NCBI GenBank assembly: GCA_016198755.1
Contig: JACQIB010000004.1
Coordinates: 1-64,000 of the forward strand
Source of the DNA: Candidatus Aenigmatarchaeota archaeon
GTDB taxonomy: Archaea > Aenigmatarchaeota > Aenigmatarchaeia > Aenigmatarchaeales > JACQIB01
Length of the DNA: 64,000 nt
Direction of reading: 5' to 3'
Position 1 is the stretch's first letter, and every line of letters starts with the position of its first letter. Position numbers and translations under genes: made by a program. Shown one piece after another: positions 26,508 through 44,302 of the stretch. Under the pieces are notes generated by a model. That model ran no database searches, was not told the origin of the DNA, and saw only the letters and a program-made list of their open reading frames with translations.

Positions 26508-29500
26508 ACTGCTCTCTCGTGCTCATAGTACCATTTCATTTGTTCTGGTGTTGAGAGCTCGTCGAAATTATCATCTGACAAAATTTTGCTGCCTTGTCTA
26601 ATTTGAGTTATTTCCTTTATTTTCCATTTGCTTTCTTTTGCATCCCATAAAAATGTCCAGAACTCTTCAAATGGGTAAACATCATCATCTCCCCTGATAA
26701 CCTTTGGCTCTGTAAAAGTATTTTCATTCCCGTCTCCAACCTCCTCAACAACCGTGGTTTTGTTTATAGTAATGCTTAATTTACCCTTCACTTTTTGTCC
26801 TTCATAATTTTCTGACTTTGTTTGTTTTGTAACAATTTTCTCCTGCTTTATACCATGTGCTTTTGCATACCAGTCTGGTACAGAAGAATCGCGCAGAATA
26901 ACATCCTGAGCGTGCGCAGAAATCCATGCTACAAACTCGTTCTTTTTCTTGTCAGCATGGTTCCTTATTATTATAATTTTCACATCCTCTATACCCAAAT
27001 TTCTCAGCTCATTTCTTTCATTCTGCTTTATCATCTGCTCCAGTTCTTCTGTGTGTTCTTTGTAAATATCAGGCATCATTAGCCCTTCCACTTCTGTATA
27101 ATCCCTGTCCTGCCAGGCTGTCTGGAGCTGGGTAAAATAGGAACGAGTTAATTGAACTAATTTTCTCTCATCCCACTCTTTCCAGAGCATATGCAAATAG
27201 TTTAAAAGCCTGTGGGCGCGCTCAGCTTTCTCATCTATTTTTCCCCGCGGTGCAGGCTGATCCATTGTTGCCCAGCCTCCTCCGGAGCTTCTGCCCTTAA
27301 CAATCGCATAAATAAAAACGCCTATAAACACTAGGAAAAACAAACCAAAGAAAAGTGAAACTATTATATTAAAGATAACTTCTGCAGGGCCGGGAGGGGG
27401 GAGAAAAGGAGAGTTTGCTGGGACAGTTCCTGCGTAAATTGAAACTGGAACTGAGGAATTGCGCTCAAAATCCCCGTTCAGTACTGGAAAAAGGGTTACA
27501 TTGTTCTGTGTTATTGTTATATTGTCTATAAGTGTGTACCAGCCTCCTGTGCTTGAAGAAGGATGCTGGGAGAAACGTATCCTTACTGTGTTCCCTGTAA
27601 AATTGGATAGGTCTGCTCTCGCCTTATACCAGCCTCCTGTGAGCCCAGAGTATGTGGTTGTATAAAGCTTTTCCTCTCCCCTGAGGTCTAACAAATCAAA
27701 TGTGAAATTTATCCCTCCGTTTTCGTCTAACTGGATCCATTCTATTCCATTCCCACGAAGGATAAATGGATCATTTGTGGCTATTCCAACGGAGGAAGAG
27801 GATCCAGAGGAACCTGAACGCAGGATTAGTGCTTTGTCAGTGGATGGAAACACAATGTTTTTTGTATTTGTAGCCCCAGATATTTGTGTTTTCTCTAAAA
27901 CAATACCAGAAATACCATTGCTTATATTGGAAAAGTTCCAGCCTTGGGCTGAGAGAATTATGGGAAAGTAAAAAGAAACTGGAGGAGGTGGGCTTGAGCT
28001 GCCGCCTCCACCGCCCCCGCCTTTATTGTGCACAGCAAAAGAATTTGCAAAGAAGGTATGTTCCCCATCAACTTCAAGATTATAAGCTACAGTTGGTTCT
28101 GGTATAAAATTATTGAAAATTATTTTCTCTCCCACAAGCCTTCCATTTTTTAGAATATAGATTGTTTCCCCCGTTTTCAGCTCCTGCACTTCCTTATATC
28201 CGGTATTTGTTAGGAATGGATGTTCAGCAGTTGCATTTACCTCGCTTGTTTTTGTTTTAAGGGAAAAGTAACCATCTCTGTGGACTTTATAAATTGTTTT
28301 TACAGCAGATTCCTTTACATTTCTATTTTCATCGAAAGAGTATATTTTATCCCCTTTCTTTAGGGTTTCTATGTTTACAGGGCCGGAAACAGTGGAAATT
28401 TCTGTTCCTGGAAGGAAACAGCCGCCCTTGTTATGTACAGCAAAAGAATTTGCAAAAAAAGTGTGCTCATTATCAACTTCTAAGTTATAGGCTGTGGTAG
28501 GTATGGGAATATAGGTTATAGAGAGTATTTTTTGTGGTACAAGACTGTTGCTTTCAAGGATAAAAACAGTTTCTCCAACAGACAAATATTGGGTTTCTAC
28601 ATAACCATTATCAGTTAGGAAAGGGTGTTCTGCTGTTGCATTAACTTCCGTGGATTCTGTTTTTAGGTTATAATAGCCTTCTCTATGCACAGAAAAAACC
28701 TTGTTAACTCTGGATTCCACTATATTTCCATTGCTGTCAAAGGAAAATACAGAATCTCCTGCTTTAAGGTTCTCTATATCCACTGGTCCTGAAGAGCCGG
28801 AAACTTGGGTTCCGGGCAGAAAGCATCCCCCGCCGCCGCCCTTGTTATGAACTGCAAATTTGTCTGCAAAGTAAGTATGTTCTCCGGAAACTTCCAGATT
28901 ATAGGCATAGGTTGGCTCTGGAACATATTGTACTGAAAGTATTTTCTCAGGGGAAAGCTTTTCATTATTTAGGATAAAAATAGTTGACCCTGCAGAAAGG
29001 TACTGGGTTTCAATATAGCCTTTGTCAGTTAGGAAAGGGTGTTCTGCTGTTGCTTTCACTTCAGAGGAAGATATTTTAACTATATAATAGCCCTCGCGGT
29101 GGACTTTGTAAATCTTGTTTACTGTTGAGGAAGCTATCTTTCCGGAAGGATCAAAAGAATAGACAGATTCCCCAACAGAGAGTGTTTCAATGTTTTTTGG
29201 ACCGGAAAGGGTTTCAACTGCAGTTCCGGGTAAAAAACAGCCTCCTTTGTTGTGCACAGCGAAAGAGTTTGAGAAAAAAGTATGCTCGCCGGAAACTTCC
29301 AGATTATAGGCAACTGTTGGGTTAGGAATATACTCTGAAGATGATATAGCTTCTTTGACAAGCTTACCTTCAGAAAGAATAAAAACTTCATTACCGATAT
29401 TAAGGTTCTGTGCTTCAATATAGCCTTTATCAGTCAAAAAGGGATGTTCAGCAGTAACGTTTACAATAGAACTTTTTGTTCGCAGAATATAGTAGCCTTC

Positions 29501-29719
29501 TCTGTGCACTTCATAAACTTTTTTCACAGAGGATTCAAGAACGTTTCCGTTCTCATCAAAAGAGTAAACAGAATCCCCAGGGAGAATATTCTCTATATTT
29601 ACAACTCCTGTGGGAGTGGAAACTTCTGTCCCAGGAAGGAAACAGCCGCCGCCAGCGCGTGCAAAAGCTGGTGCAGCTATAAAAAGCAATAAAAGTAAAG
29701 GGAGCAGGAGTTTTTTCAT
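26504..29719 (-). CDS. Tim44-like membrane protein interrupted by four tandem Hint (intein-like) domains
   Basis: The 1071-residue product has a signal peptide (1-20) ending in ARAGGG, four Hint domains of exactly 132 residues each (26-157, 161-292, 299-430, 434-565), a Gly/Ser/Pro linker, a beta-sandwich (about 585-755), one membrane segment (about 785-815) and a cytoplasmic Tim44-like domain (about 830-1060). Each Hint copy starts with CFLPGT, has TAEHPF (block B), EHT.F (block F) and ends AVHN, separated only by KGG or KGGGGG. Bacterial Tim44-like proteins often begin with a signal peptide and a Gly-rich stretch, so the Hint array appears to sit within that stretch. RBS GGTGA before ATG 29719; 12 nt behind the DUF350-like gene, probably one operon. 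Confidence 0.85.
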   Translation of the reverse strand: MKKLLLPLLLLLFIAAPAFARAGGGCFLPGTEVSTPTGVVNIENILPGDSVYSFDENGNVLESSVKKVYEVHREGYYILRTKSSIVNVTAEHPFLTDKGYIEAQNLNIGNEVFILSEGKLVKEAISSSEYIPNPTVAYNLEVSGEHTFFSNSFAVHNKGGCFLPGTAVETLSGPKNIETLSVGESVYSFDPSGKIASSTVNKIYKVHREGYYIVKISSSEVKATAEHPFLTDKGYIETQYLSAGSTIFILNNEKLSPEKILSVQYVPEPTYAYNLEVSGEHTYFADKFAVHNKGGGGGCFLPGTQVSGSSGPVDIENLKAGDSVFSFDSNGNIVESRVNKVFSVHREGYYNLKTESTEVNATAEHPFLTDNGYVETQYLSVGETVFILESNSLVPQKILSITYIPIPTTAYNLEVDNEHTFFANSFAVHNKGGCFLPGTEISTVSGPVNIETLKKGDKIYSFDENRNVKESAVKTIYKVHRDGYFSLKTKTSEVNATAEHPFLTNTGYKEVQELKTGETIYILKNGRLVGEKIIFNNFIPEPTVAYNLEVDGEHTFFANSFAVHNKGGGGGGGSSSPPPPVSFYFPIILSAQGWNFSNISNGISGIVLEKTQISGATNTKNIVFPSTDKALILRSGSSGSSSSVGIATNDPFILRGNGIEWIQLDENGGINFTFDLLDLRGEEKLYTTTYSGLTGGWYKARADLSNFTGNTVRIRFSQHPSSSTGGWYTLIDNITITQNNVTLFPVLNGDFERNSSVPVSIYAGTVPANSPFLPPPGPAEVIFNIIVSLFFGLFFLVFIGVFIYAIVKGRSSGGGWATMDQPAPRGKIDEKAERAHRLLNYLHMLWKEWDERKLVQLTRSYFTQLQTAWQDRDYTEVEGLMMPDIYKEHTEELEQMIKQNERNELRNLGIEDVKIIIIRNHADKKKNEFVAWISAHAQDVILRDSSVPDWYAKAHGIKQEKIVTKQTKSENYEGQKVKGKLSITINKTTVVEEVGDGNENTFTEPKVIRGDDDVYPFEEFWTFLWDAKESKWKIKEITQIRQGSKILSDDNFDELSTPEQMKWYYEHERAV
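28025..29644 (-). repeat. Four tandem Hint-domain repeats
   Basis: Units at 29249-29644, 28844-29239, 28430-28825 and 28025-28420, each 396 nt. All keep Cys1, the TxxH histidine and the terminal His-Asn. The residue after Asn is always Lys, not Cys, Ser or Thr, as in type B bacterial intein-like domains. They differ enough from each other to be old duplications. Confidence 0.85.
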
Positions 29720-29731
29720 TTTTTCACCTGC

Positions 29732-29989
29732 TTACCCGTGTATTCCAGCTATTATTGCAGAGCCAATTATTATTGCCATACCCAAAATTGCTGCGCTAAC
29801 TATTCTCCCAAAATACTGGGCAACAGCATTGTTTCCCCTTTTAATTTCTTTTCCTTCGTCCAAGTCAGGGGTTAGCCTGTTTATTAACTTGGGTAATAGC
29901 ACGGTTGCAACCAACATTGCTGCAAATCCTATAACTATTCCCACTACAGTAAAGCCCACAGCCAGAGCAGTGGTTTCTACTAGAGCCAT
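29732..29989 (-). CDS. Small DUF350-like membrane protein
   Basis: The 85-residue product has an N-terminal membrane helix (about 6-30), a polar loop with EIKRGNN and a C-terminal glycine-rich membrane helix (about 58-82), which resembles the DUF350/YjfL family. The start ATG 29989 is supported by GGTGAT at 29993-29998 and by a TATA box at 30021-30028; an in-frame TTG at 30001 is less likely. It is first in an operon with the Tim44-like gene. The 170 nt upstream (30002-30172) hold this promoter and a weak direct repeat. Confidence 0.6.
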   Translation of the reverse strand: MALVETTALAVGFTVVGIVIGFAAMLVATVLLPKLINRLTPDLDEGKEIKRGNNAVAQYFGRIVSAAILGMAIIIGSAIIAGIHG

Positions 29990-30172
29990 TATATCACCCA
30001 AATAAACAAGGCTGAACTGATTTATATAGTTAGCTAAGGAAAAATAATAGGATTTTTAGTATGCATAATAACCTTTCAGTCTGTTCATAGATCATTCAGC
30101 TTCAAATTTCTTTCAACTAGCATTAAAGCATAAGAATATTTCTTAATCTGAAGCAAGCTGCTAAGGAAAAAC

Positions 30173-41932: not shown

Positions 41933-43195
41933 TTACCCTTTCTGTTTCAGCGCAGAAGGAGTTGAGCCTGCATGCCAGCTCTGCCTCATTCTAATCTGTA
42001 CATTGAAAAGTCGCTCAGAATTATCATCTAAAACAACAGCAGAGCCTTTTGTTTTGGGCAGGTCTGTAATATTTTTTCTCAAATCCTCAAGCAAATAGGT
42101 TTGCATTATTCCGGATAAAGCTTCCATATCAGGTTTCGCTGTTAAACGATGGGCTATAACCAAATCAGCCTGTGCTATAGCATCCTCATGCAGCTTATTC
42201 GGCCTTTGGGTGGCAAGAACAAGGGAAATTCCAGGCTGCCTTCCTTGGCGAAGCAAGGTCAGGAAAGGACCTGTAGATGCTGTTTCGCGCTCAGACCCTA
42301 TAAAGTTGTGCGCTTCATCCACCATTATCCATGTTAACGGAACCTTTCTCTTTTCTTCCCCTGCAATAAGTGCAGACTCTTCTTCGCGTCTGGCAGAAAT
42401 GCGTACAGAATAGATTTCCCTTGCCAAAAATCCTAAAAATAACGAGCGCACAGCCCAGTCCATTAAACTCACATCTAATATCGTAACAGAGCCGGGCTTC
42501 ATTATATCCTCTATTCTAAGATCTTTATCTGAAAAAATCCCCCAGTTTTCAGCCCCATAGAATCTGTTTTCCAGCGATAGCCTCTCTTTCTCTCCTGATT
42601 TTTTATCCCCTTCTATTTCTTTTAGTATATTCTCCAGACCATATTTTTTTCCTTCCAATTTTTTCAAAGCCCTTTGCAGTAAAATTCCCTCAGGTTCTGT
42701 AAGCTGGATACCAAAGGTCAGTGCCCAGTCTCCAGCAGATAAAGCTGAAGGCTGTAAAGAAAATGCCCCGTCAAATCCCAAATGTTTTTCTTTGTATACC
42801 TGTTCAAACCCTTTTGGAACAAGATTCTGAACTGGAAATCCCTTTGGTTGCACCCCCCATTCCCTTAACTGCAGCAAAGCAGAATCATTTGCAATTTTCA
42901 TGCTCCAGAAAATTCCCATTGTATCCACAATCAAAACAGAAAGACTATCCCTTACATCAGCAGGCAGGTTCATAACTTCCTCAGCCATCAAAGCCATTGT
43001 AAAGCTCTTTCCACTTCCCCTTTTTCCAACAATCAAAGCCACATGCGGCTGTGCCATATCCAGAAAAACAGGATTAGTTAAATTATAGTCAAATCCAGCT
43101 TTCACCAAATGTTTTCCAATATAGGCCGTTCCTCGCTTCCCGAACTTCTTCAGGTCACTCTGTTCCCTTCCCAATATAATCTCTTCCATAGGCAT
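41933..43195 (-). CDS. HerA/DUF87-type ATPase
   Basis: The 420-residue product has a P-loop GKRGSGKS at 57-64, Walker B WIMVDEAHNF and a later ATQRPNKL sensor stretch, the pattern of HerA/VirD4-like hexameric translocases. The N-terminus (about 5-45) is a short beta domain as in HerA. It lacks a NurA partner here and instead heads the Hef helicase and nuclease operon, so it may move DNA during fork repair. The start ATG 43195 follows a TTTATTTA box (43221-43228) by about 27 nt; ATG 43189 is possible. Confidence 0.8.
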   Translation of the reverse strand: MPMEEIILGREQSDLKKFGKRGTAYIGKHLVKAGFDYNLTNPVFLDMAQPHVALIVGKRGSGKSFTMALMAEEVMNLPADVRDSLSVLIVDTMGIFWSMKIANDSALLQLREWGVQPKGFPVQNLVPKGFEQVYKEKHLGFDGAFSLQPSALSAGDWALTFGIQLTEPEGILLQRALKKLEGKKYGLENILKEIEGDKKSGEKERLSLENRFYGAENWGIFSDKDLRIEDIMKPGSVTILDVSLMDWAVRSLFLGFLAREIYSVRISARREEESALIAGEEKRKVPLTWIMVDEAHNFIGSERETASTGPFLTLLRQGRQPGISLVLATQRPNKLHEDAIAQADLVIAHRLTAKPDMEALSGIMQTYLLEDLRKNITDLPKTKGSAVVLDDNSERLFNVQIRMRQSWHAGSTPSALKQKG

Positions 43196-43265
43196 AAAAG
43201 AAATTGCTGCTACAGGTTATTAAATAAAGTTGTTATGGGCTTTAATGTGATTATTGGACTATGTA

Positions 43266-44270
43266 TCAGGCCTTGCAGCAAAGGAACCATACACCAGGAT
43301 CATTTTTCCAGTCCACTGAGCCACCACATGCTTCATCATACCCTCTCCAGGATATACTGGCGATCTGCAACCCTCCAGCATTTGAAGGGAAATTCCCACC
43401 ACAGCTCTTGCAGAATGCACATGAGTTCAAAACACCGCCTGCAACCTTTTCCTTTGTAACAGCTCCGTTTGCCAGCTTTGATGTAGCCACAGCTCCGTCT
43501 CCTATTTTTGATGAAGTAACAGCATTATCAGCCAGTTCAGTTGTGCTAACACCATTATTTTCTATCTGCAGTGCTCCAACAGAATCAGCAGCCAGCTTAT
43601 CTTTTGTTACAGTGCTGCCAAATAATTTTGCGCCAGTTATAGTTCCATCAGCAATTTGTGTTGCTGTTATAGTTCCGTCCTGTATTTTAGAACCCTTTAC
43701 CTTCATGGCAGAATTTGTTCCGCAAGCATCTGCATTTATATTACTTACAGCTGCACCACAAATAAGCCTATCTCCCTGTATGCTCCCGCCCTTTATTTTG
43801 CCATTTGTTACAGATTCATCTGCCAGCTTTCCTGTTGTTATAGACCCGTCAGCCACAGCAAAGTTTTTCCTTGCTATAAAAGCCCCCGGAGCAATAATAA
43901 TCCTTGGGGAAAGTTTGTTCCCGCCAATCTCCAGCTCTGCATAATATTCCTTATCAAATGTTATAGAATTTGGGAAAGCCTTTGTTTTTCCAAGGCTTGC
44001 AAACCAAGTCCCTTTTTTCACAGAAATAGTCTGGGTTTCTGTAAACAATGCTGTCCCAGCAGTTGCAACATCATACAAATTAAATGTGATGCTCAAATCC
44101 TGTGTTACAGGTTTCCCAGTAGAATCTTTAAGGAACCCCTGAAGCGGGAGCTGCTCTTTTACAACAGCTTGCCCTGGTTGTGTTGTGGTTGTCTGTGCAA
44201 CAGCTAAAGCAGCCATTATTGCAAATACAGCCAGAACAGAAAACAAAACAACTTTTGCACTCCCTTTCAT
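43266..44270 (-). CDS. Secreted tail-fibre-like repeat protein
   Basis: The 334-residue product has a signal peptide (about 1-26), an N-terminal beta domain like that of the 4695-5672 product (about 35-130; PLQGFLKDSTGKPV, then FNLYD), and a repetitive region (about 140-285) of short units of the form G(S/T)ITxxKLADxSVT, like tail-fibre shafts. The C-terminal 50 residues hold several cysteines (CAFCKSCGG and CC). The start ATG 44270 follows TATTTATA (44293-44300) by about 26 nt. Probable surface fibre or adhesin. Confidence 0.7.
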   Translation of the reverse strand: MKGSAKVVLFSVLAVFAIMAALAVAQTTTTQPGQAVVKEQLPLQGFLKDSTGKPVTQDLSITFNLYDVATAGTALFTETQTISVKKGTWFASLGKTKAFPNSITFDKEYYAELEIGGNKLSPRIIIAPGAFIARKNFAVADGSITTGKLADESVTNGKIKGGSIQGDRLICGAAVSNINADACGTNSAMKVKGSKIQDGTITATQIADGTITGAKLFGSTVTKDKLAADSVGALQIENNGVSTTELADNAVTSSKIGDGAVATSKLANGAVTKEKVAGGVLNSCAFCKSCGGNFPSNAGGLQIASISWRGYDEACGGSVDWKNDPGVWFLCCKA

Positions 44271-44302
44271 ACAAATCACTCTGCTTTTTACATATAAATA
44301 CT

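Follow-up and report, generated by a model that had tools for sequence, protein, structure and literature searches.

Bacterial intein-like (BIL) domains have been described in variable regions of non-conserved proteins (PMC7765530), and their role has been unclear since their discovery, in part because of the variable proteins that they occupy. For type-A BIL domains, which have no nucleophile at the residue following the domain (+1), ligation has been proposed to proceed through nucleophilic attack by the released amine on the N-terminal thioester, cleavage being the dominant outcome (PMC4031507). In another setting, the BIL2 domain of BUBL1 has been reported to form Lys isopeptides (PMC8616854). 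Here we describe a Tim44-like protein with four tandem Hint (intein-type) domains, encoded in a 64,000-nucleotide stretch of a Candidatus Aenigmatarchaeota genome (contig JACQIB010000004.1, positions 1 to 64,000; the whole stretch is called the window below). As this Hint-Tim44 arrangement is met again in distant bacteria, each time with the same gene next to it, we see in it what looks like a conserved protein-processing device, apparently not described before, and not the oddity of a single genome. No description of Tim44 combined with an intein, a Hint domain or DUF350 was found in the open-access literature, which is weak evidence of absence.

Four diverged Hint units with the residues of type-A BIL domains

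All four units span Cys to His-Asn in exactly 132 residues and have every catalytic residue intact. An earlier note, made from the letters alone, had described such units with KGG or KGGGGG between them, and this description proved exact to the base. Pairwise identities among the units are 60–65% in amino acids and 62–65% in nucleotides, with a nonsynonymous divergence (dN) of about 0.3 and a synonymous divergence (dS) of at least 1.6 or saturated. An assembly artefact or a recent tandem duplication was ruled out by this DNA identity and the near-saturated silent sites. Tandem Repeats Finder detected no repeat in the array because the copies are too diverged.

The Pfam PT-HINT family matched the protein in four stretches (E=9e-49), and the NCBIfam models intein_Nterm and intein_Cterm gave four matches each above the cut-off. 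An AlphaFold2 model of unit 1 showed a Hint fold (pLDDT 97.5), for which the top Foldseek matches were the BIL domain of C. thermocellum (2lwy, TM-score 0.89) and the Mtu RecA mini-intein; BUBL1 BIL2 and Hedgehog were also among the nearest folds (E down to 2e-11). Judged by the modelled fold, the window units are members of the Hint/intein superfamily. Profiles, fold and active-site residues thus agree with the earlier view of intein-like units that keep all splicing residues except the +1 nucleophile.

Cys1, the block-B Thr and His and the C-terminal His-Asn are found in all four units, and Lys follows each of them, so that the absence of Cys, Ser or Thr at +1 is that of type-A BIL domains and not the arrangement of class 1 inteins. 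The units do not stand just before a C-terminal toxin domain, as pretoxin HINT domains do, since the downstream region is Tim44-like by Pfam; neither are they flanked by ubiquitin-like domains as in BUBL proteins, the exteins between units being 2–8 residues long. The units do have Gly at −1 and Lys at +1, as a BUBL-type donor/acceptor pair would need. A mobile intein with an endonuclease was ruled out, as the 132-residue units carry no insert, and a polymorphic toxin or defence system was rejected: no toxin domain was present, and the only PADLOC match, a weak one at the C-terminus, was to a model of a homing endonuclease.

Hint-Tim44 proteins recur beside a DUF350 gene

Representative prokaryote genomes were scanned with the four window units, and profile searches were then carried out with the Tim44 part. 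The scan revealed, in other Micrarchaeota and several bacteria, open reading frames (ORFs) with at least two Hint units followed by a transmembrane segment and a Tim44 domain. The collection comprises 27 Hint-Tim44 proteins with 55 Hint C-ends, from Micrarchaeota, Legionellaceae, Riflebacteria and Elusimicrobiota, each with 1 to at least 4 units. Five of 112 Legionellaceae genomes carry them, with two or three units, and so do 16 of 248 Elusimicrobiota genomes, with one or three; the Riflebacteria proteins have three. In the Tim44 profile search of the window's phylum, a Tim44 gene of this type was detected in 1 of 151 genomes, the window's own, and two other Micrarchaeota members (L011, L012) were found by the contig scan. 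This patchy distribution suggests horizontal transfer, probably from bacteria. A plasmid or phage origin was considered and rejected, as no record covers more than about one third of the Legionella protein.

The gene directly upstream of the window's Hint-Tim44 gene encodes a small membrane protein assigned to DUF350 (YjfL; PF03994, 29.8 bits against a cut-off of 26). Every one of the 24 Hint-Tim44 loci with available upstream DNA, archaeal as well as bacterial, has an orthologue at this position and in the same orientation. The array is therefore not the one-off that it had seemed to be from the window, since both its architecture and the adjacent DUF350 gene are shared with other Micrarchaeota and three bacterial groups. 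Within the fetched flanks, no DUF350 gene was found near any of 13 Hint-free Tim44 genes. As Hint-free Tim44 proteins score lower with the family profile (56–104 bits versus 116–265 bits for Hint-Tim44), the adjacency may mark a Tim44 subfamily rather than the Hint domains. Elsewhere, DUF350 proteins are encoded in envelope-stress and polyamine operons (PMC11237479).

Conservation of catalytic residues and of the residues around the units

In an alignment of 19 units, the sole invariant columns were C1, F2, G13, T64, H67, V130, H131 and N132. The earlier note had named the loss of Cys1 or His-Asn in close homologues as grounds for refuting its reading. Such losses were looked for among 52 near-complete units, and the outcome did not refute it: G13, H67, H131 and N132 were present in every one, and C1 and T64 in 50. 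The only Hint-Tim44 proteins without Cys1 and the block-B Thr are L127 and L128 (L141, L142), near-identical Elusimicrobia sisters that also lack Lys at +1, where both have Tyr, and the Gly runs on either side, while His-Asn is kept. This single lineage is suggestive of a naturally inactivated Hint domain, in which the N-side chemistry, Lys+1 and the linkers would have been lost together. In Legionella, units 1 and 2 gave dN/dS values of 0.05–0.10 where dS was below saturation, similar to those of the Tim44 domains (0.04–0.11), and by this computation these Hint units are shown to be under purifying selection.

Surface stalks are often built from small beta-domains repeated in tandem, and the Hint fold might be used here as a compact, catalytically inert spacer, for which the persistence of the domain in L127 and L128 despite the loss of Cys1 would speak. 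We regard this explanation as very doubtful, because the catalytic positions are the most conserved ones at an overall divergence of 40–60%, and a spacer would not be expected to retain Cys1, the block-B Thr-x-x-His and also His-Asn in almost all copies.

The residues around the units are also constrained. Position +1 after His-Asn is Lys in 52 of the 55 C-ends (Tyr in two, Met in one), and Gly directly precedes Cys1 in all Cys1-bearing units but one, which has Ser (one spurious start is part of the raw regular-expression count). In the bacterial arrays, units 1 and 2 are joined by exactly Lys-Gly in 12 of 12 cases, and units 2 and 3 usually by KGGG. With splicing-type domains on both sides, the invariant two-residue peptide would be exceptionally short for an extein. 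One Elusimicrobia array (L114 / L135, 4421-5722) has a 26-residue insertion between the halves of its third Hint unit.

These flanks bear on the possibility that the Hint domains are self-releasing proteases that only cleave. Both ends of each unit would then be cut, by hydrolysis of the thioester and by Asn cyclisation, domains and Lys-Gly linkers would be shed, and a membrane-anchored Tim44 protein starting with Lys would be left, the function being the new N-terminus or the release of the 14-kDa domain. We consider this possible, if somewhat unlikely. Type-A BIL domains do give mostly cleavage products (PMC4031507, PMC7664689), cargo release is the presumed task of the HINT domains in polymorphic toxins (PMC3482391), and +1 is never Cys, Ser or Thr. 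However, one unit would suffice for cleavage, yet three or four with separate conserved identities are retained; shedding leaves the strict Lys+1 and the exact Lys-Gly extein unexplained, and the N-side available for release is only about 5 residues long. The earlier note had taken the Lys as a mark of domains that cleave rather than splice. The residue itself is indeed Lys, but the conclusion does not follow, as type-A BIL domains are reported to splice too (PMC4031507), and the isopeptides reported for BUBL1 BIL2 (PMC8616854) argue against reading Lys as a sign against ligation. Detachment of the signal-peptide end, also envisaged there, would have little to act on, since after signal-peptidase cleavage the N-side is probably just R-A-G-G-G.

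Distinct array positions are old

A tree was built on the 52 Hint units. Bacterial first units, from Legionella and Elusimicrobia, formed one group (support 99/99), and the second units of Legionella, Riflebacteria and Elusimicrobia formed a separate one (99/99); third units grouped together with the single-Hint Elusimicrobia proteins, with weaker support (87/78). The existence of three orthologue groups by position indicates that the three-unit array, with its distinct positions, goes back a long way. By contrast, all four units of the window clustered together (99/82), adjoining the units of other Micrarchaeota, and hence the window lineage has re-expanded or homogenised its array.

A neutral or selfish history would see the units as mini-inteins without a homing endonuclease, harmless within Gly-rich linkers, duplicated in tandem, and retained solely because the loss of processing would harm the host protein. 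Related Hint domains do occur in Gly/Lys-rich linkers of unrelated hosts (an alpha-2-macroglobulin bait region, a phage tail-tip J protein), close relatives differ in unit number, one lineage has a decayed unit, and the window units are a lineage-specific expansion. We nevertheless hold this explanation to be unlikely, as units 1, 2 and 3 are orthologous by position across three bacterial groups, Gly-coding repeats should make deletion easy, and the invariant partner gene, together with the positional orthology, suggests an integrated function.

The host protein

The features of the locus are collected in Table 1. Pfam and fold comparisons confirmed that the units lie between the signal-peptide end, itself predicted, and a membrane-bound Tim44-like part, as had been proposed. 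The A2 profile matched the Tim44-like part at E=8.7e-74, and its fold matched the C-terminal domains of yeast and human Tim44 (3qk9, 2cw9) with a TM-score of about 0.6 by target length. The fold search was needed for this assignment because a PDB sequence search with the Tim44 profile gave nothing meaningful. The positively charged residues directly after the transmembrane helix suggest that the array lies outside and the Tim44 part inside, facing the cytoplasm. The extra domain of about 195 residues was seen in none of the other Hint-Tim44 members inspected, and Rfam had no match anywhere in the window.

Table 1. Features of the Hint-Tim44 locus (positions in the window)
Feature	Position	Strand	Basis
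Hint-array Tim44-like protein, 1071 aa	26504..29719	minus	ORF; Pfam and NCBIfam matches
Predicted signal peptide MKKLLLPLLLLLFIAAPAFA	29660..29719	minus	by eye and hydropathy peak at aa 4-22; AFA, then R-A-GGG
N-terminal extein R-A-G-G-G (array preceded by ARAGGG)	29645..29659	minus	sequence
Hint unit 1, 132 aa; Cys1, T64-x-x-H67, H131-N132	29249..29644	minus	
Extein linker KGG, units 1-2	29240..29248	minus	
Hint unit 2, 132 aa	28844..29239	minus	
Extein linker KGGGGG, units 2-3	28826..28843	minus	
Hint unit 3, 132 aa	28430..28825	minus	
Extein linker KGG, units 3-4	28421..28429	minus	
Hint unit 4, 132 aa	28025..28420	minus	
C-side extein KGGGGGGGSSSPPPP	27980..28024	minus	sequence
Extra domain of ~195 aa, between array and transmembrane helix	27395..27979	minus	weak choice_anch_J match, E=0.003
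Single transmembrane helix, aa 785-803, then VKGR	27311..27367	minus	hydropathy 3.01
Tim44-like domain with low-confidence insertion	26558..27241	minus	PF04280 E=3.4e-10, above cut-off
DUF350 small membrane protein gene, directly upstream of the Hint-Tim44 gene	29732..30001	minus	PF03994 E=6.9e-7

Proposed processing of the Gly/Lys arm

The computations establish the coordinates, architecture, fold, active-site conservation, purifying selection, recurrence, positional orthology and partner gene of the array, while its export and topology, its catalysis, the ligation and any trigger or role are inferred. The reading that we favour, and to which we give about an even chance, is that the units are extracytoplasmic, type-A BIL-like domains that would be excised with at least partial religation of the Gly/Lys linker. 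The two genes would form a cassette of a DUF350 membrane protein and a Hint-Tim44 protein, whose Hint domains would fold after export within a Gly-rich arm. Cys1 would take over the preceding Gly as a thioester in an N-S acyl shift aided by the block-B Thr-x-x-His, and the terminal Asn, aided by the penultimate His, would cyclise and release the following Lys. As +1 is Lys and not Cys, Ser or Thr, the canonical branched intermediate is impossible; the Gly thioester would instead be attacked by the amine set free on the Lys extein, as in type-A BIL ligation, in competition with hydrolysis. The donor position is in fact an unhindered Gly and the acceptor position nearly always Lys. Each unit would drop out as a domain of about 14 kDa, and the short exteins RAGGG, KGG, KGGGGG, KGG and KGGGGGGG, at least partly rejoined, would leave a predicted spliced arm RAGGG-KGG-KGGGGG-KGG-KGGGG on the membrane-anchored, cytoplasm-facing Tim44-like domain.

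What favours excision with partial religation is the resemblance of this predicted arm to that of Hint-free homologues, which carry ARGGGGGGKGGGG or ARAGGGGGGG where the Hint arrays sit. One of them (L091) directly encodes the arm LARGGGGGGKGGGGAG, and the R-(A)-Gly-run of the N-terminal extein is likewise found in Hint-free proteins (L091, L129-L131, L133). Rejoined exteins would thus restore the Gly/Lys-rich arm that is directly encoded in Hint-free relatives. Several points weigh against this proposal. The catalytic residues would stay conserved under cleavage alone as well; the HMMER-style orthology and the topology are computed; the Hint-free paralogues, being from a different Tim44 subgroup, do not offer a strict empty site; and the unit number varies from 2 to 3 among Legionella species, which makes unit 3 at least dispensable there.

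By analogy with the Lys epsilon-amine isopeptide reported for a BUBL1 BIL domain, a side-chain route in cis is also conceivable, in which the epsilon-amine of Lys+1, and not its alpha-amine, would take the upstream Gly thioester. We judge it quite improbable. If it were true, each Hint domain would leave its exteins joined as Gly-(epsilon)Lys, the alpha-amine remaining free, and an array of Lys-Gly exteins would yield a protease-resistant, branched Gly/Lys isopeptide arm on the surface with no need for ATP. This would be the prokaryotic equivalent of the ubiquitin-type conjugation by BIL domains that is reported for Tetrahymena BUBL1.

Related Hint domains in other hosts

In the phylum to which a Shapirobacteria metagenome-assembled genome of the candidate phyla radiation (CPR) belongs, about 20 of the 333 genomes encode an alpha-2-macroglobulin-like protein that contains one Hint domain of the same type (L144-L163, e.g. 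L145, L149, L153). The layout is A2M_BRD, ..GG-[Hint]-[D/E/N]KGG.., A2M, which corresponds to the bait-region slot, so that a self-cutting-type domain is placed, strikingly, where proteases normally trigger the alpha-2-macroglobulin trap. No description of alpha-2-macroglobulin combined with an intein or Hint domain was found in the open-access literature. Viral contigs (L038, L039) encode a phage tail-tip J-like protein with a pair of Hint domains close to its N-terminus, in the layout GAGGG-[Hint]-GGGGGGGGKG-[Hint]-GGGGGGGGKSGG, and a Gracilibacteria protein (L022) combines N-terminal hydrophobic segments with two Hint domains (HN-KGGGG.., HN-KDAV..) that are not linked to Tim44. Many single Hint domains of CPR and DPANN proteins that are not in the family carry His-Asn-Lys as well (L013, L014, L019, L051-L055, L060); it is seen in 16 of the 66 non-family C-ends listed, four repeats of the window units included, so that Lys+1 may define a wider Hint subgroup.

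Comparison with known systems

Hint-Tim44 proteins are a conserved and recurrent host of BIL-type domains, with positional orthology, a fixed Gly donor, a nearly fixed Lys acceptor and a fixed partner gene, and make the question of whether BIL domains cleave or ligate directly testable on short exteins well suited to mass spectrometry. If Lys does participate, the array would be a compact, ATP-free machine for forming amide bonds.

Among the closest described systems are type-A BIL domains such as that of C. thermocellum (PDB 2lwy), with which the units share the fold (TM-score 0.89), a size of about 130 residues, Cys1, the block-B TxxH, the C-terminal His-Asn and the lack of Cys, Ser or Thr at +1. 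Hint-Tim44 differs in its tandem arrays, the longest of which have at least four units, in the positional orthology of the units, its nearly fixed Lys at +1 and Gly at −1, its membrane-bound Tim44-like host and its DUF350 partner. The BUBL1 locus of Tetrahymena thermophila (PDB 6tmm/6y75), in which BIL domains lie between ubiquitin-like domains, also has several BIL domains per polypeptide, matches in structure with a TM-score of 0.87 and is the one for which Lys isopeptides are reported (PMC8616854). BUBL has a Gly donor at −1, and BUBL1 BIL2 is switched by zinc. In contrast to BUBL1, Hint-Tim44 is a prokaryotic membrane protein without ubiquitin-like domains, its exteins are Gly/Lys peptides of 2–8 residues, and its conserved Lys stands at +1 in cis.

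The pretoxin HINT family of polymorphic toxins (PF07591) is the best Pfam match of the array, but in Hint-Tim44 the array is N-terminal of a transmembrane helix and a Tim44-like domain, and no toxin domain or immunity gene was found. A class 1 intein in RtcB of the same genome (L165; G000 contig C5, ~42953-44300) shares the fold and blocks A, B, F and G; its two Hint halves are separated by an insert of endonuclease size, and it ends in His-Asn-Cys, whereas the array units have no insert and are followed by Lys. Finally, Hint-free bacterial Tim44-like proteins (PF04280) have the signal peptide, R-(A)-Gly-rich arm, transmembrane helix and Tim44-like domain of Hint-Tim44, and differ from it in having no Hint domain.

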